A stretch of DNA of 15,304 nucleotides from Fusobacteriota bacterium (GTDB lineage: Bacteria > Fusobacteriota > Fusobacteriia > JAPLKR01): positions 1-15,304 of the forward strand of contig JAPLKR010000096.1 of NCBI GenBank assembly GCA_026387965.1. Direction: 5' to 3'. Under the pieces are notes generated by a model, which was given only the letters and a program-made list of their open reading frames with translations, searched no databases and had not been told where the DNA came from. Positions 561 to 15,304 of the stretch are shown in pieces. Made by a program: the position numbers and the translations under genes. Every line of letters starts with the position of its first letter. Position 1 is the first letter of the stretch.

Positions 561-596
561 CTTAGGTCTCCTTAAAATTTATTATTATATGATTTT

Positions 597-743: not shown

Positions 744-751
744 TTGACCTC

Positions 752-919
752 CTAGAAATCAAATGTGCCTAAATCAAGCTGTGTAGATTGTGCAGTTTGT
801 GTTTGGTCAACAACAGGTATATTATGATCTGAGTCGCTATATAGCACATCTGAAAAACTAAAAACTGATACTGATATTGCAATTATAGCTATCAAAAAAA
901 TGTGAGTAATTTTTTTCAT
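752..919 (-). CDS. Small secreted peptide of unknown function
   Basis: The chosen start is the ATG at 919, which has AGAGGAG 7 bases upstream; an in-frame start 16 codons earlier lacks a comparable site and would spoil the signal peptide. The 55-residue product starts MKKITHIFLIAIIAISVSVF, a classic Sec signal sequence, followed by a short hydrophilic acidic and Gln/Thr-rich tail ending LDLGTFDF. No Cys or lipobox is present, so export as a small soluble or processed peptide is more likely than lipidation. It heads a minus-strand run with a second signal-peptide ORF and an RHH regulator. The family is not recognised. A secreted signalling or bacteriocin-like peptide is possible but unproven. 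Confidence 0.6.
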   Translation of the reverse strand: MKKITHIFLIAIIAISVSVFSFSDVLYSDSDHNIPVVDQTQTAQSTQLDLGTFDF

Positions 920-1196
920 CTTTAATCTCCTCTTTGGAATTATTTGGTCACATACACATCTTAACACGCTAATTTATGTCAGTTTCCCAACATCTACTCT
1001 AAAATAAGGAGGGAATTGCAAAGTAATTAAAAAGCTATGTGTGATTCCTCAAATTATTTATATTCTCCAAGAAAATAGAAGCTTACAAAAAATAACACAA
1101 CAAACCCGAAAATTTAATGCACTCTAATAAACGCTTCCCAGTTTATATTTAACTATTAAATCTGCGAGTTAAAATTTAAATCGCTACTTACATACT
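920..1196. other. Intergenic region without recognisable gene
   Basis: Between the divergently read peptide gene (minus) and the promoter of glycerate kinase (plus) I see no ORF with a ribosome binding site, no RNA gene and no strong hairpin. It should hold the promoter of the small minus-strand operon, but no well-spaced -35/-10 pair stands out. Confidence 0.4.
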
Positions 1197-1224
1197 TTGT
1201 GTATCTGGGAGAATGTGATATAAT
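1197..1224 (+). promoter_or_regulatory. Putative extended -10 promoter for glycerate kinase
   Basis: TGATATAAT (1216-1224) is an extended -10 element with a perfect TATAAT; a weak TTGTGT (1197-1202) lies 16 bases upstream of it. It would give a leader of about 200 bases before the glycerate kinase start. That leader contains a 60-odd-codon frame without a ribosome binding site, which I do not call as a gene. Confidence 0.4.
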
Positions 1225-1432
1225 TTTAATGTATGAAATGAAAGAAAAATTTTTTAATGATTTAAATATGAACCTTATGTTTATAAAGGTATCTCGGAAC
1301 CACGTATTATTGGATATTACACTGTTTTCATATGTCTTGTCGTTAATTGAATGGAATAAATATATCTCAGTAAAGTTTGGAAGAGAATACTGTATGAAAT
1401 AGAATTATATAAAAGTGATAAAGTAGGTGAAT

Positions 1433-2545: not shown

Positions 2546-2592
2546 TATATTATTTAATGATGTTTGATCATAAATTCAAAATTATAATAGTA

Positions 2593-2621
2593 TTTACAAT
2601 TTTGTGAAATTGGTGTATAAT
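2593..2621 (+). promoter_or_regulatory. Promoter of small membrane protein gene
   Basis: TTTACA (2593-2598), a 17-base spacer and a perfect TATAAT (2616-2621) form a good vegetative promoter. It leaves a leader of about 70 bases before the start at 2698. Confidence 0.7.
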
Positions 2622-2697
2622 GAAAACTCTGGAGATTTTTTTTGATATGAAAAAATAATGGGGATAGAAACTTTTACAACTGATTTTAGGAGGCAAC

Positions 2698-3066
2698 ATG
2701 AATCAGAAGTTTTCTGTTAAAGAAACCTTATTTTGGATATTATGTGGTGTATCATTATTATTGGGAGTAAATCTGATTTTACATCCTTTAAATATTTATA
2801 CATTAATTTTATTTGGCGTTAGTGTAATGGCTTCTTTGAGATTATATGTTGTCGATAATGACAACACAATCGAAAAAGAAGTAAGAAAAGCGTATCAAGA
2901 TTATTTTGATGAGTTGAAAAGTGAATATTTGTCTGGCTATATAACACGAGCTTCGCTACATGCAATGGTTTGCAAGATTACCCAAAGCCTTGAAGGGGAT
3001 AAATATAAGTTCATTAAAGTACGTGTGTTAAAACAGTTAGAGCGAGATACATTGAGAGTAAGCTAA
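2698..3066 (+). CDS. Small membrane protein of unknown function
   Basis: AGGAGG lies 4 bases before the ATG. The 122-residue product has a short cytoplasmic-looking N-terminus (MNQKFSVKE), two hydrophobic segments at about residues 9-27 and 32-50 separated by a short HPLN turn, and then a charged, probably helical cytosolic domain of about 70 residues (IEKEVRKAYQDYFDELKSE onward). The pattern is a two-helix membrane anchor with a soluble helical tail. It has its own promoter and an immediate terminator, so it is monocistronic. I do not recognise the family; no catalytic motif or metal-binding Cys/His cluster is visible. Confidence 0.75.
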   Translation: MNQKFSVKETLFWILCGVSLLLGVNLILHPLNIYTLILFGVSVMASLRLYVVDNDNTIEKEVRKAYQDYFDELKSEYLSGYITRASLHAMVCKITQSLEGDKYKFIKVRVLKQLERDTLRVS

Positions 3067-3090
3067 AGAGAGATTAATCTCTCTTTTTTT
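3065..3090 (+). terminator. Intrinsic terminator
   Basis: A perfect palindrome, AAAGAGAGATT/AATCTCTCTTT (3065-3086), overlaps the stop codon of the small membrane protein gene and runs into a U tract (TTTTTTT). Confidence 0.85.
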
Positions 3091-3091
3091 A

Positions 3092-3120
3092 TTGAATTAA
3101 TAGCCGAATTAGTGTATTAT
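3092..3120 (+). promoter_or_regulatory. Putative promoter of beta-barrel protein gene
   Basis: TTGAAT (3092-3097), a 17-base spacer and TATTAT (3115-3120) come directly after the preceding terminator and 45 bases before the next start. An overlapping TATAAT at 3118-3123 would need a 20-base spacer. Confidence 0.4.
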
Positions 3121-3164
3121 AATAGTGATAGAATTAAAGTTTGAGAGTATAAAGCGAGGATCAT

Positions 3165-3755
3165 ATGATTAAAAAAGTAGTAGCTTTAGTAGTATTAATT
3201 GCAGGAATATCGACAATTTCTCTTTCGTATAATTGGAATACTCAAGCCAATATTGGGATTTCTAAAGTTTTAGCGGTAAGTTTTTTTAATGCGAGCAGCC
3301 AACACACTTATGCAAGTAGTTCTGTCCCACTTATTTTGTCGCTTCAAGAATACTATCAATTTCATAATGCACCTTTTTGGAATAATATCTGGTTAGGCGG
3401 AGGAATTGAGTATAATTCAATTCAAAATTATAACAATAATGGAGAGCAAGCAATGTTCTCAAATGTCCCGATATTTTTGGCAATGAGAATAAATGCCAAT
3501 GTATCAGGATCTTCTTTAAACCCCTATATTGAGGGTAGATTGGGTCTAAATGCTCCACTGGGAAATCAACTGCCTCAACCTGTAGGCATGGGAGGTTACG
3601 CGGGATTTGGGATAGGAATATCGCAAGCGACTCAGTATCAATCAGGATTAAACGCAGAAATACTATTTGAACTTTCGCAAATTATAATGCAAAATCAATC
3701 TTTATTTACCACAAAAATTGGCTTTGCTGTTGGTTATAATTTTAATATGTCGTAG
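3165..3755 (+). CDS. Secreted outer-membrane beta-barrel-like protein
   Basis: The ATG follows GCGAGGA at good distance. Residues 1-21 (MIKKVVALVVLIAGISTISL) form a Sec signal peptide. The mature 175 residues contain no Cys and show about eight alternating-polarity stretches that could be antiparallel strands, such as NWNTQANIGISKVLAV, VPLILSLQEYYQF, NIWLGGGIEYNSI, VPIFLAMRINANV, LNPYIEGRLGLNA, GGYAGFGIGIS, LNAEILFELSQI and FTTKIGFAVGYNF. Length and pattern resemble small 8-stranded outer-membrane barrels (OmpA/OmpW-like transmembrane domain), which implies a diderm cell. The barrel ends YNFNMS, so the terminal aromatic residue recognised by the BAM machinery would be Phe three residues from the end. 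The specific family and substrate are unknown. A secreted monoderm beta-sandwich protein is the main alternative. Confidence 0.65.
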   Translation: MIKKVVALVVLIAGISTISLSYNWNTQANIGISKVLAVSFFNASSQHTYASSSVPLILSLQEYYQFHNAPFWNNIWLGGGIEYNSIQNYNNNGEQAMFSNVPIFLAMRINANVSGSSLNPYIEGRLGLNAPLGNQLPQPVGMGGYAGFGIGISQATQYQSGLNAEILFELSQIIMQNQSLFTTKIGFAVGYNFNMS

Positions 3756-3799
3756 AAGTAAAATGTATCATGTTCTAAATCCCATTAAAGATCTACGTT

Positions 3800-3856
3800 T
3801 AAAGAAACCTCAATTCTCAATTAAGTGCAACTTAATTGAGAATTGAGGTTTCTTTA
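3800..3856. terminator. Long perfect hairpin, bidirectional terminator
   Basis: A 26-bp perfect stem (3800-3825 with 3831-3856) closes a 5-base TGCAA loop. It lies between the convergent beta-barrel gene (plus) and Big2 lipoprotein gene (minus), with TTTCTTTATATTTTT on the plus side and an AAAGAAACC-derived TTTCTTT on the minus side. A shared terminator for both genes is the simplest role; the stem is much longer than termination requires. Confidence 0.8.
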
Positions 3857-3890
3857 TATTTTTAGACTTACACTTTGTTTAGAAATTGTA

Positions 3891-4022
3891 TTACGTCACT
3901 TGAACTGTGCAATCTGTTTGAACAGAATTGTTATATGCTGAAGCAGTAATTGTTGTAGTGCCTGTTACTGATACATCACATGTAGCTTTTAAGTTTGCGC
4001 CCGCTTGTATGGCTGTTATGAA
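3891..4022 (-). pseudogene. Frame-shifted C-terminal tail of the Big2 lipoprotein
   Basis: In a different minus-strand frame from the lipoprotein gene, this stretch encodes FITAIQAGANLKATCDVSVTG and then TTTITASAYNNSVQTDCTV, ending QVT and a stop. The first part repeats the end of the Big2 domain already encoded upstream. It has no start or ribosome binding site of its own, so it is the orphaned natural C-terminus of the lipoprotein, detached by a 65-base out-of-frame repeat offset. Confidence 0.75.
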
Positions 4023-4085
4023 GGGCCTGTTACTGATACAGCACATGTAGCTTTTAAGTTTGTACCCGCTTGTATGGCTGTTATG
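3960..4085. repeat. 61-bp imperfect tandem repeat at the lipoprotein 3' end
   Basis: Copies at 3960-4020 and 4025-4085 differ at only a few positions (for example TCACATG/GCACATG and TTTGCGCCCG/TTTGTACCCG). The offset of 65 bases is not a multiple of three, so it shifts the reading frame. A related copy lies at about 4275-4336 and a more diverged one at about 4506-4567; these in-frame copies encode the ends of earlier Big2 domains (GTATITAIQAGTN-KATCAV). Confidence 0.85.
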
Positions 4086-5071
4086 GTGGCTGTACCCATT
4101 CCTACAAAGGCAACATTTCCATTTGCATCCACAGCTGCAACTAAGGGAGAATTCGATGACCATGTAACTTTTGCGGGATTATTTTTTGTTAATGTCAATT
4201 TAGTTTTGGTAATTGGCGCAGTAATAAATCCATATAAAGAAGTGGGAGAAAGGCTTAGTGTTGACAGAGTTACTGTTACAGCACATGTAGCTTTTGCGTT
4301 TGTGCCCGCTTGTATGGCTGTTATGGTGGCTGTACCTGACGCTCCAAAGCTAACCATCCCATTTGCATCCACAGTCGCTACGTTGAGATTATCTGATGAC
4401 CAAGTCACCGTTCCGGGTTGTTCTATCGTTACTTTCAACGGAAACGCGGGCGATGAAGTATATCCCGTTAAAGTAGGTGGGGTAATGCTTAATGCCGGCT
4501 GAGTTACTGTTACAGCACATGTAGCTGTTGCTCCTGTAAGTGTTTGTGTGGCTGTTATGATAGCTGTGCCTGAAGCTCCAAAGCTAACTAAGCCAGTTGA
4601 ATCTACTGTCGCTACGGCCGCGTTATCTGTTGTCCAACTAACTATTCCAGTTTTTACTGTCGTTTCTGTCAACTGAACAGGAGTCGCTGATACAAACGCT
4701 CCTATGTCATTTTGAGATATTGTTATCTGCGCTACTCCTGTTACAACTACAGAACATGTAGCTGTAACATTTGTTCCCAGTATCGTTGCTACAATATTTG
4801 TGGTTCCTGGACCATTCGCAACAATCACCCCTTCTTGATTAACTGTTGCAACACTATCATTTTGGCTTGACCAAACTATCGGTACTGTCCCAGTTGATTC
4901 AGTTGCCGTCAATTTCAATGTTCCAGATGCTGCTAACGTTGTTGAATTTTCAGATAGCGAAATTGAAAGTTTTGTTGGTGTAGAAGGTGTGTTTCCACTT
5001 CCTGCGCTTGAACATCCAAAAAGTCCTATCGCTATCACCATTACAATTACTACTATAACTATTTTTTTCAT
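4016..5071 (-). CDS. Lipoprotein with four Big2 (Ig-like) repeats, truncated
   Basis: The start at 5071 has AGGAGG 4 bases upstream; a start 10 codons earlier gives a poorer signal peptide. Residues 1-20 (MKKIVIVVIVMVIAIGLFGC) are a lipoprotein signal with lipobox LFGC, so Cys20 should be lipidated. A Ser/Gly/Thr-rich linker leads into four tandem bacterial Ig-like group 2 domains at about residues 34-111, 115-190, 194-268 and 271-348, each with a VTWSS..N..VA.VD..G.V core and a GTATITA...G....ATCAV end. Big2 domains are typical of cell-surface adhesion or wall-binding proteins. The frame stops two residues after the fourth domain (GPS), and the probable natural tail lies in another frame at 3891-4022. 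The protein is 351 residues as encoded and is probably still exported. Confidence 0.85.
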   Translation of the reverse strand: MKKIVIVVIVMVIAIGLFGCSSAGSGNTPSTPTKLSISLSENSTTLAASGTLKLTATESTGTVPIVWSSQNDSVATVNQEGVIVANGPGTTNIVATILGTNVTATCSVVVTGVAQITISQNDIGAFVSATPVQLTETTVKTGIVSWTTDNAAVATVDSTGLVSFGASGTAIITATQTLTGATATCAVTVTQPALSITPPTLTGYTSSPAFPLKVTIEQPGTVTWSSDNLNVATVDANGMVSFGASGTATITAIQAGTNAKATCAVTVTLSTLSLSPTSLYGFITAPITKTKLTLTKNNPAKVTWSSNSPLVAAVDANGNVAFVGMGTATITAIQAGTNLKATCAVSVTGPS

Positions 5072-5101
5072 CTTTCCTCCTATTGATATTATTTTTTTCA
5101 C

Positions 5102-5417
5102 AACAATATTCTTTGCCCGTTTTGTCGAGAATAATGCTATACAACCCCCCCTTTTATTTTAATAGCATGATTGTAAAACTATAATGTGTTTTTAATGGTT
5201 TCTTAAGATATTTTTCACTATGAGTTATGTTCACCATCGTTACATATAGTATATCACACTATTAATAAAATTTAAAGTTATTTTTAAATGCATTTATATA
5301 TATATTATTTTCTATTAATCGACATATGCCGCCCCAAAGAAATATATCAGAAGAAATAAAAAAGATATTCCGAAATGAAAAGTATGTTGGAATATATAAA
5401 CATGGAGGAATATCTAA
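5102..5417. other. AT-rich intergenic region upstream of the lipoprotein gene
   Basis: No gene with a ribosome binding site is seen. It should carry the minus-strand promoter of the lipoprotein gene, but no clear -35/-10 pair with good spacing stands out. The right part (about 5320-5417) probably already belongs to the IS remnant that follows, since the OrfA start codon is at 5418. Confidence 0.35.
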
Positions 5418-5819
5418 ATGAAATAACAATGGGAGCAGTATAGTACAACCTTTAAGACAAAAGTGGTTTTGGAAGTACTGAAAAACGAAAAATAATGGCA
5501 GAAATAGCAAGTGAGTTCAATGACTTACCTCAGAGTATCAACTCATAGAAAAAGATATTTATAGAGAATTCAGAAATAGATATGAATCCAAGTAAAATAG
5601 TCAAAGAATATAAAGAAGAAATAGCAGAGTTAATTCAAAGAATGAGAGAAATACAAAGCAAATCGGAGAATTTACGATTTAGAAAGAGTGGTTAGCGGTA
5701 AAGTTAAATAGCACAGAGTCGACAAGGTTAACCTTATCGACTCTGTGCTATCAGAATTGGCATTAACTAAGCTGTGGAACATACTAGGTGTTTCGACAAG
5801 TAAAGTCTACCTCTCTTGA
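5418..5819 (+). pseudogene. Decayed IS3-family transposase (OrfA plus start of OrfB)
   Basis: GGAGG (5404-5408) precedes an ATG at 5418, but the frame hits TAA two codons later. Fragments in shifting frames then spell an IS3-type OrfA: YSTTFKTKVVLEVLKNEK (5439 on), then IMAEIASEFNDLPQSINS with a TAG where the family has Trp, KKIFIENSEIDMNPSKIV, EYKEEIAEL, and KQIGEFTI-KEWLAVKL. From 5727 another frame spells the start of OrfB: VNLIDSVLSELALTKLW then NILGVSTSKVY, ending at 5819 where similarity stops. Several frameshifts and at least three nonsense codons show it is dead. The catalytic DDE part of OrfB is missing. Confidence 0.85.
5708..5751. repeat. 44-base near-perfect palindrome at the OrfA/OrfB junction
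   Basis: Two 22-base arms (5708-5729 and 5730-5751) meet around AAGGTTAACCTT and pair with a single mismatch (C5724 against A5735). No U tract follows on either side, so it is not an obvious terminator. The arms coincide with the end of the OrfA remnant and the first codons of the OrfB remnant. Confidence 0.85.
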
Positions 5820-5883
5820 TCATACTACTGTCCACTTTACATTTTAAAATTAGTGTTGTTAGAACAGCGTAAAATGTATTTAA

Positions 5884-5997
5884 ACTGGGGGCTACAGCGT
5901 ATTCTAACGCTATTTCTTGTAGTGTTTTTCGCTCCTTTAAAGCTTCTATCGCTACCTCTTTTTTAAATTCTGATTTATAGTGCTGCCGTTTGTTCAT
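5884..5997 (-). pseudogene. N-terminal fragment of a second IS3-type OrfA
   Basis: From the ATG at 5997, with AGGAGG upstream, the minus strand reads MNKRQHYKSEFKKEVAIEAL and then KERKTLQEIALEYAVAPS, the first helix-turn-helix part of an IS3-family OrfA. After residue 38 the family similarity ends abruptly. The open frame continues for another 38 unrelated residues to 5767, into the oppositely oriented IS remnant, so this is a truncated gene and not a 76-residue protein. GGACAGAAGTTAGCGACACG (about 6044-6065, minus strand) upstream of it resembles an IS end. Confidence 0.75.
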
Positions 5998-6099
5998 GGA
6001 GTCCTCCTATTATTGGATATATTTTAGCATTTTATTCCTTACGTGTCGCTAACTTCTGTCCAAAATACCTACTCCATTATAGTTTACAATCAAAAATTA

Positions 6100-6146
6100 T
6101 TAGTTCCAAAAATTAAAAGCAGAAAGAGAAAAAAATCTCTTTCTGC
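6100..6146 (-). terminator. Intrinsic terminator of the 109-residue protein gene
   Basis: An 11-bp stem, GCAGAAAGAGA/TCTCTTTCTGC (6119-6129 with 6136-6146), with a 6-base loop is followed on the minus strand by TTTTAATTTTT. It lies about 60 bases beyond the stop codon at 6209. Confidence 0.85.
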
Positions 6147-6208
6147 CGCTTAACCTTGGAAATATCTTTCTGAAAAATTCCGTCTCATTTTTCTGGAGCG
6201 GTATAAAA

Positions 6209-6538
6209 TTATTCTTCAGAATCTGTAACTTGTATTGTATAAACAGTCGGATTGTTTTGTGAAATAGAAACATTTGAAAAATTTTCAAATAAAAACCCCG
6301 AAAATGCTTTTTCAAATTCTTCATCTTTAACAGATACTTCAAGGATCTCTTCCCACTCTTCATCATCAAACAGGTCAATAAGCTGAAAATCAACATTAAA
6401 TTCTGGTATTACATCATTATTTTGAGTTTTAAATACAGCACGTTTTAAAAGAACTAAAAAGTCATCGATTCGGTATTGTGCAATTTCTAGATATTCTTCA
6501 ACGCTAAGAGTAGGCTGTTTTGTTTTTTTTGATGCCAT
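6209..6538 (-). CDS. Small acidic protein of unknown function
   Basis: GGAGG lies 5 bases before the ATG, and a promoter and a terminator flank the gene, so it is a real monocistronic unit. The 109-residue product starts with a Lys-rich MASKKTKQPTLS and then becomes strongly acidic (LFDDEEWEEILEVSVKDEEF). It is predicted cytosolic, without Cys, a signal peptide or membrane segments. Hydrophobic stretches such as EYLEIAQYRIDDFLVLLKRA look helical, and the end NPTVYTIQVTDSEE looks like a strand. I recognise no family. Confidence 0.8.
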   Translation of the reverse strand: MASKKTKQPTLSVEEYLEIAQYRIDDFLVLLKRAVFKTQNNDVIPEFNVDFQLIDLFDDEEWEEILEVSVKDEEFEKAFSGFLFENFSNVSISQNNPTVYTIQVTDSEE

Positions 6539-6570
6539 TTATTCCTCCAGTTTCATTTTAATATGTTATT

Positions 6571-6599
6571 ATTTTATCATAGTAAATAACTTGTGTCTA
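6571..6599 (-). promoter_or_regulatory. Putative promoter of the small acidic protein gene
   Basis: On the minus strand TAGACA (6594-6599), a 17-base spacer and TAAAAT (6571-6576) lie about 30 bases upstream of the start codon. Confidence 0.45.
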
Positions 6600-6664
6600 T
6601 ATTCATTATGACCTAATTATAAGGCTATAAAATATAAAACTATCTATTGCAAAGGGAGTATGAT

Positions 6665-6718
6665 ATGATATTTATACAGGCATTGTTTTCCGTGAATGCT
6701 CAACAGTTGAATAAATAG
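6665..6718 (+). CDS. Possible 17-residue leader peptide
   Basis: AGGGAG lies 6 bases before an ATG that opens a short frame, MIFIQALFSVNAQQLNK, ending in TAG. The spacing of the ribosome binding site is good but the product is tiny. It precedes the Cys-rich protein gene by 44 bases and could be a leader or a chance frame. Confidence 0.25.
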   Translation: MIFIQALFSVNAQQLNK

Positions 6719-6762
6719 AGCTGATAATATAACTTTAAATATACTAACTTGATGGAGGAAAA

Positions 6763-6981
6763 ATGATCATTAGTATTACGCCCGAAATAGCATATTTGTT
6801 ATTAGATAAGAAAATTACAAAAAATATGAATAAAAAAATTATCCGAAAAGTTAAATCTGAAAGCTGCAAAGGTTGTTTTTTCTTTCTTTATAGTAAATCA
6901 AGTTGTGCTATTAGCGAAGAGATCGAAGCACAACTTGGAAAATGTGAAGAAGATATTTTCGTTTCAATACAAAGAATGTGA
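6763..6981 (+). CDS. Small four-cysteine protein of unknown function
   Basis: GGAGG lies 5 bases before the ATG, and a strong terminator follows the stop. The 72-residue product has a basic N-terminal half (LLLDKKITKNMNKKIIRKVK) and a C-terminal half with a CKGCFFFLYSKSSC motif plus a fourth Cys in GKCEEDIF. The CxxC-x9-C-x13-C arrangement resembles small putative metal-binding proteins often seen in phages and accessory regions of low-GC bacteria, with the recurring form 'CKGCxFxxxxxxC...lGxC..diiF'. The function of that group is not known to me. Zinc or another metal as ligand is inference. Confidence 0.7.
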   Translation: MIISITPEIAYLLLDKKITKNMNKKIIRKVKSESCKGCFFFLYSKSSCAISEEIEAQLGKCEEDIFVSIQRM

Positions 6982-7006
6982 TTTTTTATTAACTATTATT
7001 AAGCAT

Positions 7007-7037
7007 ATAAAAACAGCGCACAAGCGCTGTTTTTTTG
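7007..7037 (+). terminator. Intrinsic terminator
   Basis: The stem AACAGCGC/GCGCTGTT (7012-7019 with 7024-7031), loop ACAA, with a TTTTTTTG tract on the plus side and an A tract before it. It ends the four-Cys protein gene. Confidence 0.9.
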
Positions 7038-7087
7038 TTTTGATTATATGTTTTAATAATTGATGCAGAAGTAGAAAGTTGGTGGGG

Positions 7088-7283
7088 AAGCAAAAATTAG
7101 AATTAACTTGGGTTACATGGATAATTAAGTTGTTCTGGAGTCGAGAACATTGCTTGATGACCCTGAAAAATTTTACAACAAGAGAAACAGTAAAAATATG
7201 CCGTTACACCGGGGGGTAACCTTTTAGCGATAAAAGCTTTAGAACGAGAATATGCTGGTGGAGTAAAAATGTATCAATTTTGA
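7088..7283 (+). pseudogene. Remnant of a site-specific DNA methyltransferase (Mod-like)
   Basis: Three frames in succession spell pieces of the N-terminal part of adenine-specific, type III Mod-like methyltransferases: KQKLELTW (7088-7111), then LESRTLLDDPEKFYNKRN and SKNMPLHRG, then GNLLAIKALEREYAGGVK (7215 on). Intact relatives read 'LEPRxLLxDP' and 'HGDNLLALKALExxYxGKVKxIYIDPPYNT'. Here the frame ends just before the catalytic DPPY position. Frameshifts and an in-frame TAA show it is dead, and neither the catalytic core nor a Res subunit is found in the window. Confidence 0.65.
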
Positions 7284-7464
7284 ATAAAGTGATTACGAGA
7301 TCGTAAAAAAGGAAATGAGTAGGGATTATAAAAATATCTGAACCTGGCACAACAATTGATGGTAAGTCATCGGGTTGTTCCTTTATAGGTTATTTGACTT
7401 ATTGATTTTTAGAAGATGGATATAAAATATTATGCAAAATGAAAAAAGAATTTCTTTGAAGAAG
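7284..7464. other. Intergenic debris between methylase remnant and cbiA
   Basis: No gene is seen. An imperfect hairpin lies near 7349-7381 (ACAAC...GATG / CATC..GTTGT). A weak AAAGAA/TTCTTT stem near 7443-7456 with a short U run could end cbiA on the minus strand. Confidence 0.3.
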
Positions 7465-8853
7465 TCATAATATGCAGTTTTGAGAAGCTTTGTTTATAAA
7501 CGATTCTGCGACTAATTGGCAGCTTTTGAAATGAATATGAAGATATGATGCATAAACATTTTTATATGAGTACCCTTCAAGCAGATTTATTTTAGCATCA
7601 ATGCTTTTTATGATGCATGATTTTTTTGTATTGTCTTTTTCTATAACTTGGGATTTGTGAAAGATGTGGCCTTTAAAAGTATCACCTTTGCTTCCGATAA
7701 GGCAATCTTGTGAAAGTTCGCCTACAGCATAGCTTAAGGAGAGCTTGGCGTTCATGTTAGCTTCCATTGGAAAAATTCCTACTGATTTGAATTTCTTGTT
7801 TGTTTCAAATTCGCCCAGATCCTCACAGAGATACATCAGTCCACCGCATTCGGCGTAAATCGGCATTCCGTTATCGGCAACAGTTTTTATTTGATTAATC
7901 AAAGCAGTATTAGCTGATAATTCAGATGCGAATACTTCGGGAAACCCCCCTCCGAGATAAATGCCGTCGATATTGTAAGGAAGAGCTTTATCATTTATCG
8001 GACTAAAATAGACAAGTTCGGCTCCGAGTCTCTCCAGGCAGTCAAGGTTGTATTGATAATGAAATGAGAACGCTTTGTCTCTAGCGACAGCAATCCTGCA
8101 TTTGTATTTTTGATGACTGATTGTCTCAACTAGATATTGTAATGGGATTTCAACATTCAATTGTAAGATGAAATCAAGGTTAATAATTCTGGAGAAAATT
8201 TCGGCAAGATAGTTTGTCCTTTCCGAAATGTTATCTGTTTCGCTTTCTGTTATTAGCCCCAAATGCCTTTCATTGATAAAAAGCTTTTCGTCAGCAGAGA
8301 TATACCCAATTATTTTGTCTTTATGCTGTGGAGAGATGGGTTCAATGATTTTTTCAAAATGTTTATCAGAACTGATTTTGTTTAATACCACTCCTGCAAT
8401 TTTAAGTTCTGGGTTGTATTCAAATAGGGGATTTAACATGATTCCGAGAGTTTGACAAAACGAGAAACCGTCGGCAATGAGCAATATTGGGATGCCCAAA
8501 TCAATAGCAATTTGTGCAGGATTGTTGCCGTCATTGTTCCAGTCGTCGAAGAGTCCACCGACACCTTCTACGACCAGTGCATCGGAAGTTTCAGCGTATG
8601 AATAGAAAGTCTCTTTTAAAATCTCTTTTTGCCTGTAATTTTCACCAAAAGGGGTTAAAAGAAACTTATCAAGGTTAATGCATGGTGTGCCTGTAATTTT
8701 TGCATGGTATGAACTGTCTATATAATCGGGCCCTAGTTTGAAACTTCTTACATTTAATCCTTTTTTTATCAGAAGCGAAAGAATTCCTTGTGTGGCAGTA
8801 GTTTTTCCAGTGCCACTGGTTATGCCTGCAATCATGAAAGCTATCTTTTTCAT
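7465..8853 (-). CDS. cbiA: Cobyrinate a,c-diamide synthase
   Basis: CbiA amidates the a and c acetate side chains of cobyrinate using glutamine and ATP, an early step of corrin-ring decoration in the anaerobic cobalamin pathway. The 462-residue product (usual length about 450-460) has the N-terminal ATP-binding synthetase domain, with AGITSGTGKTTATQGIL at residues 9-25 and KLGPDYIDSSYH at 39-50. The C-terminal class I glutamine amidotransferase domain has YLGGGFPE at 299-306, AECGGLMYL at 334-342 (nucleophile Cys336) and ASYLHIHF at 435-442 (His439 of the triad). The ATG at 8853 matches the family N-terminus, although GGAGG is about 12 bases away, further than usual; an in-frame start 17 codons upstream adds residues that do not fit. 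No other cob/cbi gene is nearby. The related hydrogenobyrinate enzyme CobB and the F430 enzyme CfbB share this fold. Confidence 0.93.
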   Translation of the reverse strand: MKKIAFMIAGITSGTGKTTATQGILSLLIKKGLNVRSFKLGPDYIDSSYHAKITGTPCINLDKFLLTPFGENYRQKEILKETFYSYAETSDALVVEGVGGLFDDWNNDGNNPAQIAIDLGIPILLIADGFSFCQTLGIMLNPLFEYNPELKIAGVVLNKISSDKHFEKIIEPISPQHKDKIIGYISADEKLFINERHLGLITESETDNISERTNYLAEIFSRIINLDFILQLNVEIPLQYLVETISHQKYKCRIAVARDKAFSFHYQYNLDCLERLGAELVYFSPINDKALPYNIDGIYLGGGFPEVFASELSANTALINQIKTVADNGMPIYAECGGLMYLCEDLGEFETNKKFKSVGIFPMEANMNAKLSLSYAVGELSQDCLIGSKGDTFKGHIFHKSQVIEKDNTKKSCIIKSIDAKINLLEGYSYKNVYASYLHIHFKSCQLVAESFINKASQNCIL

Positions 8854-9560
8854 ATTAGTATATATCCTCCATCTGGGGTCATTGTTCGATTTTATCCTCA
8901 TCAAACTTCATTTTTCTTTCAGTTTAACACAACATCATTTTTTTTGCAACGGACCCCTTAATTATAATGTGTAGTAACGTTTTTTTTAATTAATAAATGA
9001 AGAAGTCCTAGATTTTCACAGACATATTTCTTTAAATCATTTAGAAAATTTAGTAGAAATGGGAATTCTCGTTGAAATAAAACTTAGTAGAAGTAAATTT
9101 TTTATCAATCAATGACTCTATGATCTTTTCAAAAAAAACTAACGGTAAGTAAAAAAAATTAATCTTCGAAATATAAATAAAAATTATGAAGACATTTTCT
9201 ATGAAGAGCATGATTTTCTTAATTTGTTGAAATATTGAAACTTTAAAAGGCTTTAATAAAATGCACGAAAATCGAAAAAAAAAATTTTTACAAGAATAAG
9301 ATTTGTTTTTAGGCGACATTGTCGTATTCTCCAAGCAAATTATCATATTTACAGAGTAAGGTATAAAAATGAAGGAAGTGTAACAGCAGATAAAAAACAC
9401 GCAACCCTCAATGAAAGAGGTTAAAAGTAAAAAGCGACCTCACGTCAGAAAACAACAATGAAATCGCTAAAAATTAATTAATATTTTTGTTAATGAGATA
9501 TTAGTCCACATGGACAAAATATGGTGAATCTCTTTTATTATCTACTGAGTAGTGATAGAG
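8854..9560. other. Long gene-poor, very AT-rich region
   Basis: No intact gene is supported. The left part should contain the minus-strand cbiA promoter (TATAAT near 8958-8963 on the complementary strand, no clear -35). At about 9023-9108 the plus strand reads HRHISLNHLENLVEMGI then LVEIKLSRSKFFINQ, ending in TGA. This resembles the end of a winged-helix domain, so it may be a remnant of a regulator or Fic-like protein. A 116-codon minus-strand frame over 9050-9400 is low-complexity Phe/Ile-rich translation without a ribosome binding site and is not called. Confidence 0.4.
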
Positions 9561-9561
9561 T

Positions 9562-9646
9562 TGGTGCAGAGGAAGAGACTCGAACTCTCATGGATCTCTC
9601 CATACGGACCTCAACCGTACGCGTCTACCAGCTCCGCCACCCCTGC
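9562..9646 (-). tRNA. tRNA-Leu (anticodon GAG)
   Basis: The minus strand folds as a class II tRNA. The acceptor GCAGGGG pairs with CCTCTGC (one G-U). The D stem is GCG/CGC with a GG-containing loop. The anticodon stem TACGG/CCGTA encloses the loop TTGAGGT. A long variable arm TGGA-GAGA-TCCA is followed by the T arm GAGAG-TTCGAGT-CTCTT. The CCA end is encoded (9562-9564). Anticodon GAG reads CUC and CUU leucine codons; the long variable arm fits tRNA-Leu. Confidence 0.97.
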
Positions 9647-9708
9647 ATAACATAATAATTATAAAATATTTTAGAATAAATGTCAATATTAAATTTAGTG
9701 TCATTTCA

Positions 9709-9737
9709 TTGAATTGTTTTATAAAATGATATATACT
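9709..9737 (+). promoter_or_regulatory. Putative promoter of the nitroreductase gene
   Basis: TTGAAT (9709-9714), a 17-base spacer and TATACT (9732-9737) lie 30 bases before the start codon. A TATAAT at 9744-9749 has no well-spaced -35. Confidence 0.45.
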
Positions 9738-9766
9738 ATGTATTATAATAATCCTTAGGAGGCAAA

Positions 9767-10333
9767 GTGAAAAATCTAGTATTGGATGTAATCAAAAGCA
9801 GAAGAAGTATTAGAAAGTTTAAATCAACCCCAATTACTGATGAAGAGCTCTTTACCATTATTGAAGCAGGTAATTTCGCACCGAGTGGTCACAATGAGCA
9901 GCCATGGCACTTTACAGTGGTGAAAAACAGCTCGCTTATTGATGAACTGAGCAGTGACGTAAAAAAAGAGTGCGAGACATTTCCTGAACCATTTATTCAA
10001 TCTATGTCAAAAAATGCAGCTTTTCATGTGTTCTATCATGCACCAATGGTAATTGTTGTATCAGCAATGCCAAATGGTCTTACAAAAGTGGAAGATTGTT
10101 CTGCAGCAACACAAAACATTTTACTTGCTGCAGAGTCACTTAATATAGGAACGTGTTGGATAGAATTTATTAATATAGGATTTAAAAATACTGAATTTAA
10201 AGCAAAATACCTTAAAAAGCTTGAAATTCCTGAGGGAGCTACGCCAACTATGGCAATAGCGATTGGTTATAAGGATATGCCTAATATTCCTGTAAAAAGA
10301 AAAAACGAAACATGTTATAACATAGTAGAGTAA
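9767..10333 (+). CDS. Nitroreductase-family FMN-dependent oxidoreductase
   Basis: The GTG start at 9767 is 4 bases after AGGAGG. The 188-residue product begins with the family signature LDVIKSRRSIRKF (FMN phosphate-binding Arg and Ser residues), followed by NFAPSGHNEQPWHF near residues 36-49, a second flavin contact. It then has the hydrophobic AAATQNILLAAESLNIGTCW-type helix near 110-130 (here starting SAATQNILLAA) and the C-terminal PTMAIAIGYKD block near 160-170. These homodimeric flavoproteins use NAD(P)H to reduce nitro compounds, quinones or other acceptors, and the natural substrate is usually unknown, as here. The gene is monocistronic, with its own promoter and terminator. The length fits short family members. 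Confidence 0.9.
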   Translation: MKNLVLDVIKSRRSIRKFKSTPITDEELFTIIEAGNFAPSGHNEQPWHFTVVKNSSLIDELSSDVKKECETFPEPFIQSMSKNAAFHVFYHAPMVIVVSAMPNGLTKVEDCSAATQNILLAAESLNIGTCWIEFINIGFKNTEFKAKYLKKLEIPEGATPTMAIAIGYKDMPNIPVKRKNETCYNIVE

Positions 10334-10336
10334 TTT

Positions 10337-10365
10337 AAAGTAGGCAATATGCCTACTTTTTACTT
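10337..10365 (+). terminator. Intrinsic terminator
   Basis: The stem AAAGTAGGC/GCCTACTTT (10337-10345 with 10351-10359), loop AATAT, followed by a U-rich TTACTTTTA tract just after the nitroreductase stop. Confidence 0.88.
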
Positions 10366-10409
10366 TTATAGTCATTAGTAAAAATATGTATATAAATTAT
10401 CAAAACATA

Positions 10410-10438
10410 TTGACAAAATAGTAGAAATAGGATATAAT
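10410..10438 (+). promoter_or_regulatory. Consensus promoter of the rplM-rpsI operon
   Basis: A perfect TTGACA (10410-10415), a 17-base spacer and a perfect TATAAT (10433-10438) put the transcription start near 10445. This is the strongest promoter in the window, as expected for ribosomal protein genes. Confidence 0.88.
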
Positions 10439-10444
10439 TGATAA

Positions 10445-10501
10445 TTGAATGATCCTTTCCCACAGTCCGAGATCAATCAAAAAGTAATGGAGGTAGTTGA
10501 G
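10445..10501 (+). promoter_or_regulatory. Short 5' leader of rplM
   Basis: These bases lie between the predicted transcription start and the rplM start codon and end in the ribosome binding site GGAGG (10489-10493). Short autoregulatory L13 leaders are known upstream of rplM in low-GC bacteria. Whether this sequence folds into one cannot be decided by eye, so the regulatory role is inference. Confidence 0.35.
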
Positions 10502-10936
10502 GTGAAAAAATCAACTAAGACACTAAGAACCGAAGATGTTGTTAGAAACTGGTATACAATTGATGCAGAAGGAGTTATTCTAGGAAGACTCGCATCAAAG
10601 ATTGCAATGATATTAATGGGTAAAGAGAAATCTACTTACTCACCAAACATTGATGGTGGAGATTATGTTGTTGTTACAAATGCAACTAAGTTTGCTGTAA
10701 CAGGTAACAAAATGGAAGATAAGAAATATCACCACTACAGTGGATATAAAGGTGGTCTAACTACAAGAAACCTTGCTGATATGTTAGAAAGAAAACCTAC
10801 TGATGTTATCAGACTAGCTGTTAAAAACATGCTTCCAAAAAATAAATTAGCTGCACAAAGATTAAACAGATTAAAAATCTATGTTGCTTCAGAACATGAG
10901 CATGCAGCACAAAAACCAACAAGCTTTACGCTTTAA
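10502..10936 (+). CDS. rplM: 50S ribosomal protein L13
   Basis: The start is taken as GTG at 10502, with GGAGG 8 bases upstream, giving 144 residues, the usual L13 length. A longer frame reaching a TTG at 10445 would begin at the predicted transcription start and lack a leader. L13 marks are clear: RNWYTIDAEGVILGRLASKI near residues 15-34, MGKEKSTYSPNIDGGDYVVV near 38-57, HHYSGYKGGL near 78-87, and AVKNMLPKNKL near 106-116. L13 is an early-assembly 23S rRNA-binding protein of the large subunit. It is followed after 18 bases by rpsI, the conserved rplM-rpsI pair. Confidence 0.97.
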   Translation: MKKSTKTLRTEDVVRNWYTIDAEGVILGRLASKIAMILMGKEKSTYSPNIDGGDYVVVTNATKFAVTGNKMEDKKYHHYSGYKGGLTTRNLADMLERKPTDVIRLAVKNMLPKNKLAAQRLNRLKIYVASEHEHAAQKPTSFTL

Positions 10937-10954
10937 TTTTAGGGAGGAATAACA

Positions 10955-11344
10955 GTGAGTACAGTTTATTATGGAACAGGTAGAAGAAAAACTTCAACAG
11001 CAAGAGTAAGAGTAATTGCTGGTGAAACAGGAATTGAAATCAACGGAAGAGACGTTGTTGATTATTTTGGAAGAGCGGCTTACAGAATGATTCTTGAGCA
11101 GCCATTAGTTTTAACAAATACAGTAGGGCAATTTAAAATTTCTGTAAATGTTAAAGGTGGCGGACTTACAGGGCAAGCTGGAGCTATTAGACACGGTCTC
11201 TCAAAAGCTTTATTAGAGTATAACTTAGAGCTTCGTGGAATACTTAAAGCTGCAGGATTCTTAACTCGTGACTCAAGAATGGTCGAGAGAAAGAAATATG
11301 GAAAGAAAAAAGCAAGAAAAAGCCCTCAGTTCTCAAAACGTTAA
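10955..11344 (+). CDS. rpsI: 30S ribosomal protein S9
   Basis: The GTG start is preceded by GGGAGG with a 7-base spacer. The 129-residue product is full length: [16 protein letters not shown] at the N-terminus, then [28 protein letters not shown] near residues 69-86, and the basic tail [20 protein letters not shown] that reaches toward P-site tRNA. It is co-transcribed with rplM and followed by a strong terminator. Confidence 0.97.
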
Positions 11345-11420
11345 TTTGGGTCTACTTAAACAAACTATTATTTTCAATACTTTGCGAATTTCAAAAAGTA
11401 TTTGTTGCGTAGTTAATTTT

Positions 11421-11468
11421 AAAAAGTATAAAAGATAAGGCTTTAATGCCTTATCTTTTATACTTTTT
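11421..11468. terminator. Long perfect hairpin terminator after rpsI
   Basis: A 21-bp perfect stem (11421-11441 with 11448-11468) closes a TTTAAT loop. The core GATAAGGC/GCCTTATC is followed by TTTTATACTTTTTATT. It is symmetric enough to work in both directions. The right arm overlaps a decayed minus-strand reading frame. Confidence 0.88.
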
Positions 11469-11640
11469 ATTCAATATTTTCATGACCTTATCATCACCGT
11501 TTTTCAGTACGTGAGAATATAAATTTCAGAGAGAGCAACTTTTGTTAGACCAAAACAAGAAATTTTATCGAGCCCTTCGGCATAAATAATGTAGTTAATA
11601 TTGTCTAAATTTTCAAACTAAGCAAGTCTTGTGATTTTGT
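11433..11640 (-). pseudogene. Unidentified decayed gene end
   Basis: On the minus strand one frame reads FENLDNINYIIYAEGLDKI then SCFGLTKVALSEIYILTY before a stop near 11511. The next frame continues VLKNGDDKVMKILNKKYKR to a TAA near 11433. The amino acid mix is protein-like, with a TAG near the upstream end and a frameshift in the middle, so this looks like the last 60-odd residues of a dead gene. I do not recognise the family. Confidence 0.4.
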
Positions 11641-11701
11641 TTATATATGTATCTTAGAAATTGATCTACTCCAAATTTAGGAAAAAACATATGACAAGAA
11701 T

Positions 11702-11742
11702 AAAGAGAGATGTTACAATCATCGCTCTTTTTATTATATTTT
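11702..11742 (+). terminator. Orphan intrinsic terminator
   Basis: The stem AAAGAGAGATG/CATCGCTCTTT (11702-11712 with 11720-11730, one A/G mismatch) is followed by a U-rich TTATTATATTTTG. No plus-strand gene precedes it within 350 bases, so it probably ended a gene that has since decayed. Confidence 0.65.
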
Positions 11743-11744
11743 GC

Positions 11745-11772
11745 TTGAAAATTCATAAAATAATGTTATAAT
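11745..11772 (+). promoter_or_regulatory. Putative promoter upstream of the recombinase remnant
   Basis: TTGAAA (11745-11750), a 16-base spacer and a perfect TATAAT (11767-11772) lie about 90 bases before the serine recombinase remnant. It probably once served the recombinase. It could now contribute read-through transcription to the biosynthetic operon at 12222. Confidence 0.5.
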
Positions 11773-11857
11773 AAGATCAGAAAAAAATTAGTCTTAAAAT
11801 CAAAGTAAAAGTATTTGTAGAAAATGAGACTATTAATAACTATTCTGTGGTGTTAAC

Positions 11858-12206
11858 ATAAAAAGTGGCTATGTAAGAGTGAAGTACATAGATTATCAAA
11901 AAGATGTGCTAAAACATGTCTGATGCAAAAAAATCTTTCAGGAGATGATATCAGGAAAGAATTAAGAGCGTCCAGAGCTACAAAAACTATGAGAGTAACT
12001 TCGTAAAGATGATGTAGTGATAATTATTGATTTAACCTTGGAAGAAGTGTAATAGACTTATTTCCTTAATTGATAAAGTTGAAAATATTAGTGCCCATTG
12101 AACATCGTTGGAGGAATCCTGGATAAGTACGACAACGAGATATGGAAAATATTATTTTCTATCTTTTTAGAAATTAGCCAATTTGAATGAGATATTATTA
12201 ATAAAA
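11858..12206 (+). pseudogene. Decayed serine recombinase (resolvase/invertase family)
   Basis: Pieces in shifting frames line up along the catalytic domain of a resolvase/DNA-invertase: KSGYVRVKYIDYQKDV (11861 on, with ATA where the start ATG is expected), then FQEMISGKELRASRA, then LRKDDVVIIIDLTLEEV, then DLFPLIDKVENI-like residues, LEESWISTTTRYGK, and finally EISQFE-DIINK near 12171-12206. Intact family members read 'GYxRVST..Q', 'IFxExxSGk', 'LREGDxVVV..LDRLGRS', and 'FExxxI'. At least four frame changes plus stops, and a damaged RLGR motif, show it is dead. It ends immediately before the ribosome binding site of the condensation-domain gene. Confidence 0.75.
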
Positions 12207-12221
12207 AAAAAGGAGATAAAA

Positions 12222-13484
12222 ATGAAAAAAATAAGAGAATTAAACTTTTATGAAACAGCTTGTGCACTAGGGCATGATTTAGGTCATGGAGCATTTAATA
12301 TGACAATGGGATTTGAAATTAATAGAAAATTAGACGTAGAAATTTTGAGAAATGCCATTCGTTATTCGTTTGAATCTCATCTTTTACTTCGTGCGATTCT
12401 GTTTTTTGAAGAAAACCATTATATCTTTATTGAAAATAATGATTTTAATAAAGTATGCATCAAAGTTGAAGAGTGTGATAAAATGTTAGAGGAATGTTTT
12501 AGTGAAGAGCAAGATACAAGATTTTGCAATTCAGAATCTTTGATTCGTTTCAGAGTTATTAAAAAGCATGAAACAGATCTATTTTTAATGTCAATGCATC
12601 ATGGTCTTGGTGATGGGATGTCAATGTGGAAAATTATTAGAGAAATTTTTAACAGTTATTTGAAAATTCAGAAAAATGAAAAAGTTATTCTGAAAAGTAT
12701 GAAATATGATAAGAGTTTAGAGGATGTTGTAGAATCTGAAGTGAGTAAGCTAGGCGAAATAATAGAAAACTCATATAATAAGGAATTCATACTAAATAAG
12801 TATGTTCAAATAGAAGAGCGAAGTACAGGAGTTCAGCTTATTCACATAGAAAAAAATGAGTTCAAAAAAATTGTTATAGAAGCAAAGAAAATGAGTATTA
12901 CAGTTAATTCATTTTTAACACGAAATTTATTTGAAAGTATTGTCAATATGCTAAAAGTGCCTTCCGAAATTACAATTAATACCCCTTTTAATCTTTTTAC
13001 ACAATTTAATGTTATCGAACATTTTCCTGATACTGATTTTGGTAATGGGGTTGGTATGATTGTTCAAAAATATAAAAGTGATGATTATTCTACATTTTGT
13101 GAATGGTCGATGAAATTTGAAAAAGAATTAAAAGAGAAGATAAAAGTGTATAAAATTTCTAAGTTATCGGTAGATAACTTTTTAAGTGCGAAACATCTTA
13201 TAGAAACCTTAATAGAACAGTCTTCTAAAGGAACCATTCCATTGGATTTCATGCATAGTAATATTGGGAAAGTAACGCTACATAGTGAATTGGATTCACA
13301 AATAAAAGGTATGATTTCTGGCGGCGGTAGAAGAATGGGAGATCAAGTATTATTTGTTGTTCCCATATCCATTGATGGGGAGCTTTATGTTTCAGTAAGT
13401 TTTACAAGACCGTTTGTATCGGATGAGTGGGTCCATGAGTTTGTGAAAAATTACAAAAATAATTACAGAAGGGTTATTGGTTAA
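12222..13484 (+). CDS. Stand-alone condensation/acyltransferase-like protein
   Basis: The start at 12222 follows AAAAGGAG at good spacing; a frame reaching 12183 reads back into the recombinase remnant. The 420-residue product has the HHxxxDG motif of the condensation-domain/CoA-acyltransferase superfamily at residues 126-132 (MHHGLGDGMSM). It also has an NFYE...GHGAFNM N-terminal block like the substrate-channel start of that fold, a DFGNGVG motif in the second half, and a late SNIGKV segment as in PapA-type acyltransferases. The length equals one such domain, with no adenylation or carrier domain attached. It may release, acylate or esterify a peptide or lipid product made by the downstream NRPS-like protein. 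A stand-alone alcohol acyltransferase is the alternative. The next gene follows after 2 bases. Confidence 0.8.
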   Translation: MKKIRELNFYETACALGHDLGHGAFNMTMGFEINRKLDVEILRNAIRYSFESHLLLRAILFFEENHYIFIENNDFNKVCIKVEECDKMLEECFSEEQDTRFCNSESLIRFRVIKKHETDLFLMSMHHGLGDGMSMWKIIREIFNSYLKIQKNEKVILKSMKYDKSLEDVVESEVSKLGEIIENSYNKEFILNKYVQIEERSTGVQLIHIEKNEFKKIVIEAKKMSITVNSFLTRNLFESIVNMLKVPSEITINTPFNLFTQFNVIEHFPDTDFGNGVGMIVQKYKSDDYSTFCEWSMKFEKELKEKIKVYKISKLSVDNFLSAKHLIETLIEQSSKGTIPLDFMHSNIGKVTLHSELDSQIKGMISGGGRRMGDQVLFVVPISIDGELYVSVSFTRPFVSDEWVHEFVKNYKNNYRRVIG

Positions 13485-13486
13485 TT

Positions 13487-14689
13487 ATGGAATTTCGTGA
13501 AGAAAAAAAGAGTTTACTATTCTTTGTGTTTGCATTTGCAATAATGGGAAATTATTGTTTAGATAGTTTTTTACCATCAGTATCTAATATTGCTAAAACA
13601 TTATCGACAGATGTCGGGAAAATAGAATTGGGATTTGCATTAAGTGCGATAGGCTTAGCGATAGGTAGTTTTATATTTGGAATGCTTACATTGAAATATG
13701 GTAGACGAAGTTTAGGTTTAATCTCGCTGATTGTTTTGATAATTGGAGAATTATTTTGCACATTTCATTTAAATGTGGAGTTTTTTTGGATATCAAGAAT
13801 TATAGTAGGTATAGGTGCAGGCGCATTAATAACGATAATAGTGACCATACTTACTGAAGTGTTTCAAGGTGAAGAAATGGTGAAATATAACTCCTTTCTT
13901 ATGTTAACAATTGCATTATTACCTGCCGTTTCACCATTTTTTGGAGGTCTAATACAAACATTTCTAGGTCGATGGGAGTATAATTTTATTATACCGATGG
14001 TACTATTTATAATACTATTTATACTGTATTTTAGAAGTTTTAAAGAGTATAAAGAAGTTTCACAAGAGGTTTCAATTAATGTTGGAAAAATTATTAAAGA
14101 GTATTTTATCCCTTTTACAGAACTAAAAGCTACATTTGCAATTGTTGCGGGAATTTTTACTTTAGGAAGTATTTTTTTTTATTTAACAATTGGGCCCACG
14201 CTATTTGAAAGCGATTTGCATTTAACCCCATTCCAATATGGTGGATTTTCTGCATTGAATGCAGTAGGTTTTTTATGCTCTTCGTATTTAAATATTTTTT
14301 TGATAAAAAAAGGTATAAGAAAAATAATGATTTTTGGTAATAGTGTGGCTTTGATTGCAGGAATATTAATGATAGTACTATTTTTTAAAGTGGGATTATC
14401 TATTTTAGTAATTGTAGGGCCATCTGTTCTATTTATTTTCGGATTAAATCTAGTTCATATCAATACTCTACCAAATGCAATTTTTGTATACAAAAAGAAA
14501 AGAGGCAATATTGGAGCTACTTTCATATTTATTCAAACCTTATTTGCAGCTTTTTTTGGAATTTTTGCATCTTCTGTGAATATTGAAAATCAAAAAATTA
14601 TTGGAATTGTATTTGTATCAACGTCAATCATACTTTTTGTAATCATGAGTATTATATTTCATAAAGATAAAGGAGAGGTAAAACAATGA
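13487..14689 (+). CDS. MFS transporter, Bcr/CflA drug-efflux type
   Basis: The 400-residue product has 12 predicted hydrophobic helices and starts MEFREEKKSLLFFVFAFAIM. Helix 1 ends in CLDSFLPSVSNIAKTL, as in DHA1 multidrug exporters of the Bcr/CflA type ('D.Y.P..P.ia..l'). Motif A of the helix 2-3 loop is GMLTLKYGRRSLGL near residues 65-78, and helix 4 has RIIVGIGAGA. Its ATG is only 2 bases after the upstream stop with a distant AAGGG, so translation is probably coupled. It overlaps the next gene by ATGA. Placement inside a condensation-domain operon suggests it exports or confers resistance to the operon's product; that role is inference. Confidence 0.88.
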   Translation: MEFREEKKSLLFFVFAFAIMGNYCLDSFLPSVSNIAKTLSTDVGKIELGFALSAIGLAIGSFIFGMLTLKYGRRSLGLISLIVLIIGELFCTFHLNVEFFWISRIIVGIGAGALITIIVTILTEVFQGEEMVKYNSFLMLTIALLPAVSPFFGGLIQTFLGRWEYNFIIPMVLFIILFILYFRSFKEYKEVSQEVSINVGKIIKEYFIPFTELKATFAIVAGIFTLGSIFFYLTIGPTLFESDLHLTPFQYGGFSALNAVGFLCSSYLNIFLIKKGIRKIMIFGNSVALIAGILMIVLFFKVGLSILVIVGPSVLFIFGLNLVHINTLPNAIFVYKKKRGNIGATFIFIQTLFAAFFGIFASSVNIENQKIIGIVFVSTSIILFVIMSIIFHKDKGEVKQ

Positions 14690-15304
14690 AGAGAGTAAGT
14701 GACGCACAGAAGCGCATGTATTTTGAAGAGATGAAAGCAAAAGGAGAGAGAGTCTATAATATTAATGTATTCTATGAGATATTAGGGAAAATAGACTATA
14801 AAAAGTTAAAAGAGAGTGTAAAGAGCATAATCAATGAAGAAGAGAATTTAAGCAGTAAATATCACTTAATAAATGAAGAAGTAACGAAGCAAGAGAATGA
14901 GAAAGAGATAGAAATAATAGAAAAAGATATCTCAGAAGCCGAGATAAGAAATTTCATAAAGAATTATAAAAGTGTAATAGATATTGAAAAAGGTCCTGTA
15001 GTAAGAGTATCTATATTAAAAGTAAGTACAATATACTGTATTTTAGCAATAGAAGCGCATCATATATCAATGGATGGAACATCAGTAGATATACTACAAA
15101 ATAAGATATTAAACCGCTATCAAGGAAAAGAAGAGTTGAAAAAGGTTGAAGATCAAGAAATAGAGATAGAGAATGATATATCAATAAAATCAGAAGAAGC
15201 GAATCAATATTTTGAGAATGAAAACAAACAAGGGTATGAAGCGTTAGAGATAAGAGAATTTCATGAAAAAAATATTAAGAATAGTGAAGGCTTCAGTGTA
15301 GAAG
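14686..15304 (+). CDS. NRPS-type condensation domain protein, partial at 3' end
   Basis: ATG overlaps the exporter's stop as ATGA, with AAAGGAGAGG upstream. The visible 206 residues start KRVSDAQKRMYFEE, the C1 motif of NRPS condensation domains ('LS.aQ.r.wf'). An INVFYEILGKIDYKKLKESV block follows at about residues 26-45, and the active-site motif HHISMDGTS at 125-133 (HHxxxDG intact). The usual 'RHE.LR' segment is replaced by NEEENLSSKY near 50-59, and the stretch from 60 to 90 is highly charged. Composition is unusual: very rich in Glu, Lys and Ile, with Ile mostly ATA, unlike the genes before it. The gene runs off the window, so adenylation, carrier and thioesterase domains cannot be seen. 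The protein begins with a condensation domain, which would suit a starter C domain that N-acylates the first residue, or an elongation subunit. Confidence 0.82.
   Translation, partial: MKRVSDAQKRMYFEEMKAKGERVYNINVFYEILGKIDYKKLKESVKSIINEEENLSSKYHLINEEVTKQENEKEIEIIEKDISEAEIRNFIKNYKSVIDIEKGPVVRVSILKVSTIYCILAIEAHHISMDGTSVDILQNKILNRYQGKEELKKVEDQEIEIENDISIKSEEANQYFENENKQGYEALEIREFHEKNIKNSEGFSVE

Follow-up and report, generated by a model that had tools for sequence, protein, structure and literature searches.

A three-gene operon at the end of a contig from a Fusobacteriota bacterium (GTDB Fusobacteriia; JAPLKR01; GCA_026387965.1, contig JAPLKR010000096.1, positions 1-15,304 of the forward strand) is real and unusual. 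On balance, we favor the view that it serves to make and export one small metabolite, and that its synthetase is a nonribosomal peptide synthetase (NRPS) with condensation, adenylation, carrier and reductase domains (C-A-T-R) followed by a cyclic nucleotide-binding (CNB)-like domain that would act as a sensor-like gating module. The DNA itself shows the domain content, the order of the genes and the integrity of the core motifs. The window, that is, the whole stretch of 15,304 bases that was analyzed, is an entire contig (C67), and the NRPS gene is therefore truncated by the assembly, a draft of 1.79 Mb in 141 contigs that is 95.5% complete. The probable continuation of the gene lies on another contig, C135 (Table 1).

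Table 1. Features of the operon and of the probable continuation of its synthetase gene (window positions unless a contig is named).
Feature	Position	Strand	Basis
Expected promoter-bearing stretch, upstream of the operon	11345..12221		intergenic, after rpsI
Ribosome-binding site AAGGAG	12210..12215	+	read from sequence; 6 bases to ATG 12222
Stand-alone condensation-fold acyltransferase-like protein, 420 aa, HHGLGDG	12222..13484	+	Pfam Condensation 50.5 bits, residues 23-163
MFS exporter, Bcr/CflA-like, 400 aa	13487..14689	+	MFS_1 109 bits; TIGR00710 143.2 bits
NRPS 5' end, N-terminal half of condensation domain (HHISMDG), 206 residues	14686..15304	+	Pfam Condensation 80.4 bits, profile 7-171
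Probable NRPS continuation, 1194 aa: end of C, A, PCP, R, CNB-like	C135 11291-7707	-	domain matches

The tight coupling of the three genes described in the first-pass annotation is borne out by reading frames that are open throughout 12222-15304: the stop codon of the first gene (13482-13484) is followed by a 2-base gap before the exporter start, and the exporter and NRPS genes overlap in ATGA. A longer TTG start for the first gene (12183) is less likely than the ATG with AAGGAG ahead of it. In the intergenic region a TTGAAA-16-TATAAT match is present at 11745-11772, but it is no evidence of function because the consensus scan returned 8 sites where 6.3 are expected by chance. The operon is AT-rich, with a G+C content of 28-29% versus 33-39% in several other genes, and the ribosomal protein genes of the window resemble those of Fusobacterium (69.5% DNA identity). 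Elsewhere in the window, a helix-turn-helix protein resembling the first subunit of IS3-family transposases runs off the contig start (1-351, minus strand), and a lipoprotein-like protein with repeated bacterial Ig-like units is encoded at 4016-5101 (minus strand), where the G+C content is locally raised (43%).

The HHxxxDG motif is present in both proteins for which it had been noted, and the condensation matches of both exceed the Pfam cut-off (30.6 bits) and are thus not due to chance. The stand-alone protein is indeed strongly diverged, with no tblastn match among 72,556 plasmid records, none in 97 other Fusobacteriia genomes and a single weak full-length match among 391 clostridial genomes. 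Its best sequence match is a non-NRPS HHxxxDG protein that aligns over nearly the full length at 22% identity and whose gene adjoins an aldehyde dehydrogenase gene, while NRPS condensation domains align mainly with its first half; these alignments favor a free acyltransferase rather than an NRPS partner domain. A predicted model of modest confidence (mean pLDDT 60.7, pTM 0.61), whose input alignment consisted of NRPS C domains and so biased it towards the condensation fold, has the two-lobe fold across the whole protein together with the HHxxxDG motif, as would be expected of a condensation-fold acyltransferase. Structural alignment spans residues 1-420 of the model for SrfA-C (VIA-align Z 19.4, rmsd 5.2, 353 aligned), VibH and PapA5 (Z 16.4, rmsd 6.0, 315 aligned); as NRPS C domains, VibH and PapA5 differ by no more than 3 Z units, structure singles out no one family for the protein. 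As for the transporter, which had been called a Bcr/CflA-type exporter, its membership in the MFS stands, and it is Bcr/CflA-like, with a TIGR00710 score below the curated cut-off of 200.9.

Does the NRPS gene that is cut on C67 continue on C135? The gene on C67 breaks off near position 210 of the condensation profile, and an open frame at the end of C135 opens with the last ~50 positions of that profile (29.5 bits, just under the cut-off). Some 180 residues between the two are unassembled; no contig bridges this gap, and the ends of C67, C135 and a third contig, C1, share no overlap longer than 10 bases. Because the genome contains only three condensation-domain matches, two of which are complementary halves that sit at contig ends and point at each other, the simplest reading is that the two stretches quite probably form one gene encoding a C-A-T-R-CNB enzyme. 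C135 also fits the same organism, weakly, in that its UvrB is closest to that of Fusobacterium (54%) among the records searched. It is possible, though we consider it unlikely, that the two NRPS fragments belong to different genes in a multimodular pathway, conceivably one that includes the formyltransferase-adenylation NRPS at the end of C1. All three contigs end inside NRPS genes without an overlap to join them, the A content differs between the window C half (48%) and the start of C135 (42%), and the best tblastn matches of the window C half are condensation domains of Paenibacillus synthetases, not those of the C-A-T-R relatives. However, finding just three condensation matches in a genome this complete, with two of them facing each other as complementary halves, argues against separate genes, as does the fact that C1 carries no PF00668 match above threshold. 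The NRPS of the window could thus be a different or longer enzyme, as its junction with C135 is our reconstruction, but the single gene is the reading that we retain here.

Several neighboring or similar genes deserve mention in their own right. A geranylgeranyl-reductase-like FAD protein (L015, 5993-7261, plus strand) is encoded convergently to the synthetase gene, facing its 3' end, and could be either part of the pathway or unrelated to it. The NRPS on C1 (L030, 3592-5445) has a formyl-transferase domain followed by an adenylation domain that breaks off where the contig stops, and it could provide the window enzyme with an N-formylated donor. On contig C113 (L016, 5768-10835), two similar adjoining genes encode AMP-ligase/carrier/acyltransferase fusions of ~830 aa, and fusions of similar size were matched in many Fusobacteriia.

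The adenylation, PP-binding, NAD_binding_4 and cNMP_binding domains of the C135 protein all score above their Pfam cut-offs. The adenylation domain (PF00501, 231.8 bits) carries the motif YTSGTTGQPKG, and its core motifs are intact when it is aligned with relatives; an AMP-binding C-terminal domain separates it from the carrier (PF00550, 36.0 bits), in which the serine motif DLGVNSL is preserved. The terminal thioester reductase (PF07993, 154.3 bits versus a cut-off of 20.1; TIGR01746, 177 bits, below the cut-off of 213) has an intact TGATGFLG (GxxGxxG) and Y-x3-K, with Y856 and K860 invariant among relatives. These are elements of an NRPS module with reductive release. The idea that a biosynthetic operon starts in the window is supported, and adenylation and carrier domains do lie downstream provided that C135 is the continuation. 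The ten-letter adenylation code is unusual and reads DAI(F/Q)DGGLYK, position 278 being F in the multiple and Q in the pairwise alignment; to our knowledge, it corresponds to no described code, and it assigns no substrate. Reductase-terminated NRPSs, such as those in PMC11659414, release an aldehyde or alcohol by reduction and not a peptide acid. Since only one module was found, with a reductase instead of a thioesterase at its end, the classical acylated-peptide pathway proposed earlier is not supported, and the expected product is instead an acyl-amino aldehyde or alcohol, or else a heterocycle formed from it.

One such heterocycle would be the pyrazinone or pyrazine of an aureusimine-like pathway, formed when an aminoacyl or dipeptidyl aldehyde cyclizes nonenzymatically. 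An exporter and an extra acyltransferase-like gene are not known to belong to the aureusimine pathway, and the two-module layout of AusA is absent here, which makes this alternative rather improbable in our estimation. Nevertheless, the C135 protein scores highest in NCBIfam against AusA (NF047350), although its 601 bits are far under the cut-off of 2500, and a monomodular NRPS of Pseudomonas makes a pyrazinone core (PMC10979472).

The most distinctive part of the enzyme is its C-terminal tail, a CNB-like domain (PF00027, 41.5 bits versus a cut-off of 27.5) that is covered over nearly its whole length and whose nearest solved structures are CRP-type regulators. The tail reads GAFNLF and KKASYT in place of the usual GELSLF and PRTAT, and in an alignment with 2pqq both the Glu and the Arg of the phosphate-binding cassette are replaced by Ala. 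The domain may therefore bind no cyclic nucleotide, or it may be only structural. The fusion is unique in the sample that was searched: the tail is absent in all 46 reductase-NRPS loci, the fetched relatives end at most 28 residues past the reductase (median tail 0), and no C-A-T-R-CNB relative was found in the 97 other Fusobacteriia genomes, a sample containing no second genome of the source's genus, family or order. A query comprising the reductase and the CNB domain likewise gave no match extending into the latter (matches stop at query position 432 of 554) in the Brevinematales phylum (198 genomes) or the Gracilibacter class (82 genomes). No open-access paper was found that combines NRPS, reductase domain and cyclic nucleotide-binding domain, which, as exact words were used, is weak evidence of absence.

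Two other explanations for the tail must be weighed. A draft of 141 contigs might have wrongly joined the CNB domain of a regulator gene to the NRPS, and the single occurrence of the fusion would fit with such a misassembly; however, the frame is open without a stop over 1194 residues through the reductase-CNB junction, and two coding regions are unlikely to be fused in frame at their domain borders by accident, so that we regard this explanation as very improbable. A more serious scenario, tentative as it is, holds that the tail is an add-on without function, or else serves structurally as a dimerization module, in a reductive NRPS cluster that is otherwise ordinary and unconnected to signaling. 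The missing phosphate-binding residues speak for it, as do the single occurrence of the fusion and the short or absent tails of the relatives, but the domain is full length and above the Pfam cut-off, and the nearest relatives have sensor genes at the corresponding 3' place.

A scan of named genomes with a single protein found no relative, whereas an alignment-based scan did. In a tree of the A-T-R region, the C135 protein, on a long branch, clusters with Legionella and Cysteiniphilum enzymes of the monomodular C-A-T-R type (support 99/97), sharing 33% identity with the Cysteiniphilum enzyme over A-T-R and 36% with the Legionella reductase. In Legionella quateirensis (L064) the synthetase gene is followed, with a 23-base overlap, by a PAS-histidine-kinase hybrid gene, and on the Cysteiniphilum plasmid pQT6929 (L061) it is followed directly by a gene for a PAS protein. 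A kinase, HD, PAS or 7TM-sensor gene is directly adjacent in 37 of the 46 relative loci. Sensor-type genes account for 40 of 84 adjacent genes versus 25 of 164 further off (odds ratio 5), and the Fisher p of 1e-7 is optimistic because the 46 loci are interrelated, not phylogenetically independent, and were scored with small profiles built from these same neighbors. The Pfam counts point the same way: the 37 downstream proteins include 11 HD and 8 kinase ATPase domains, and the 34 upstream proteins 7 and 9, respectively. No sensor gene was seen adjoining the window operon. In the Gracilibacter class, 34 of 82 genomes have a reductase-NRPS match, one enzyme being followed by a 7TM histidine-kinase region and a second by an HD-domain protein. 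No open-access paper was found for thioester reductase, NRPS, histidine kinase and signaling molecule together (again exact words, hence weak evidence of absence), and one paper on Legionella secondary metabolism makes no mention of L. quateirensis or a reductase.

Further arrangements were encountered among these loci. One-module C-A-T-R NRPSs are widespread in the Gracilibacter class (L162, L195-L230), many with the code DILQLG and an adjacent HD membrane protein or histidine kinase gene, and the products of a glycine-code enzyme that has a reductase could be acyl-glycinal or acyl-ethanolamine compounds. At seven loci (L206, L207, L208, L212, L214, L222, L223) a ClpP protease gene lies directly 3' of the C-A-T-R gene and an HD-domain gene lies upstream on the opposite strand. 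A serine/threonine protein kinase gene follows the reductase NRPS with a 4-base overlap in L152 (2658-3521) and at the downstream end of L231. In a Brevinematales MAG (L066, 528-6692), a C-A-T-R NRPS is preceded by a C-A-T-C NRPS that carries a fused PilZ domain at its front, and each of the three reductase NRPSs of this genome has a histidine kinase within ~1.5 kb.

How might the operon work? That the contigs join is our inference, as are the chemistry and the export and, even more so, the gating. The adenylation domain would activate one amino acid, to which the condensation domain would join a donor, and the reductase would release the thioester as an aldehyde, or as an alcohol after a second reduction. 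The stand-alone HHxxxDG protein would most likely acylate an amine or alcohol of the donor or of the product, which the MFS protein would then export. By its position and by analogy, the CNB-like domain could gate the enzyme, most likely by reporting an intracellular ligand or partner and thereby gating or localizing it, a role that a separate kinase, PAS or HD protein encoded alongside would fill in the relatives. The fusion may thus tie production to a signal inside the cell. A doubtful extension is that the fused domain is a true receptor switching reductive release, and that C-A-T-R enzymes with neighboring or fused kinase, HD, PAS, PilZ or CNB modules make up an undescribed class of chemical signaling in Fusobacteriota, Clostridia-like anaerobes, Spirochaetota and Legionella-like bacteria. 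If the fusion does work as a receptor, it would physically and directly couple a bacterial second-messenger-type domain to a natural-product assembly line. The recurrence of a sensor gene beside reductive one-module synthetases also offers an easy criterion by which to pick out candidate signal-making systems in anaerobes, a group with few known small-molecule signals.

Parts of this system resemble known ones. The stand-alone protein is similar to VibH, SgcC5 and PapA5 in size, HHxxxDG motif and modeled two-lobe fold, but shares only 8-13% identity with them in structure alignments. The aureusimine synthetase AusA has reductive release in common with the C135 protein and is its top NCBIfam match, but it has two modules instead of one, and the C135 protein scores far below the curated cut-off. 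In HamD, from the signal-making cluster for valdiazen in Burkholderia (PMC11659414), a reductase also replaces the thioesterase, but that cluster, by its published description, forms a diazeniumdiolate with other enzymes, and nothing similar was seen beside the window operon. The C-A-T-R NRPSs of L. quateirensis, pQT6929 and the clostridial loci have the same domain order, whereas none of them has a CNB tail, and a stand-alone HHxxxDG protein and an exporter are absent from all fetched relatives; many of the clostridial enzymes carry the glycine-type code DILQLG, unlike the C135 enzyme. Finally, the tail matches the CNB domains of CRP/FNR-type regulators over nearly the whole domain, but it departs from them in having no DNA-binding domain, in the loss of the phosphate-binding Glu and Arg and in being fused to an NRPS.
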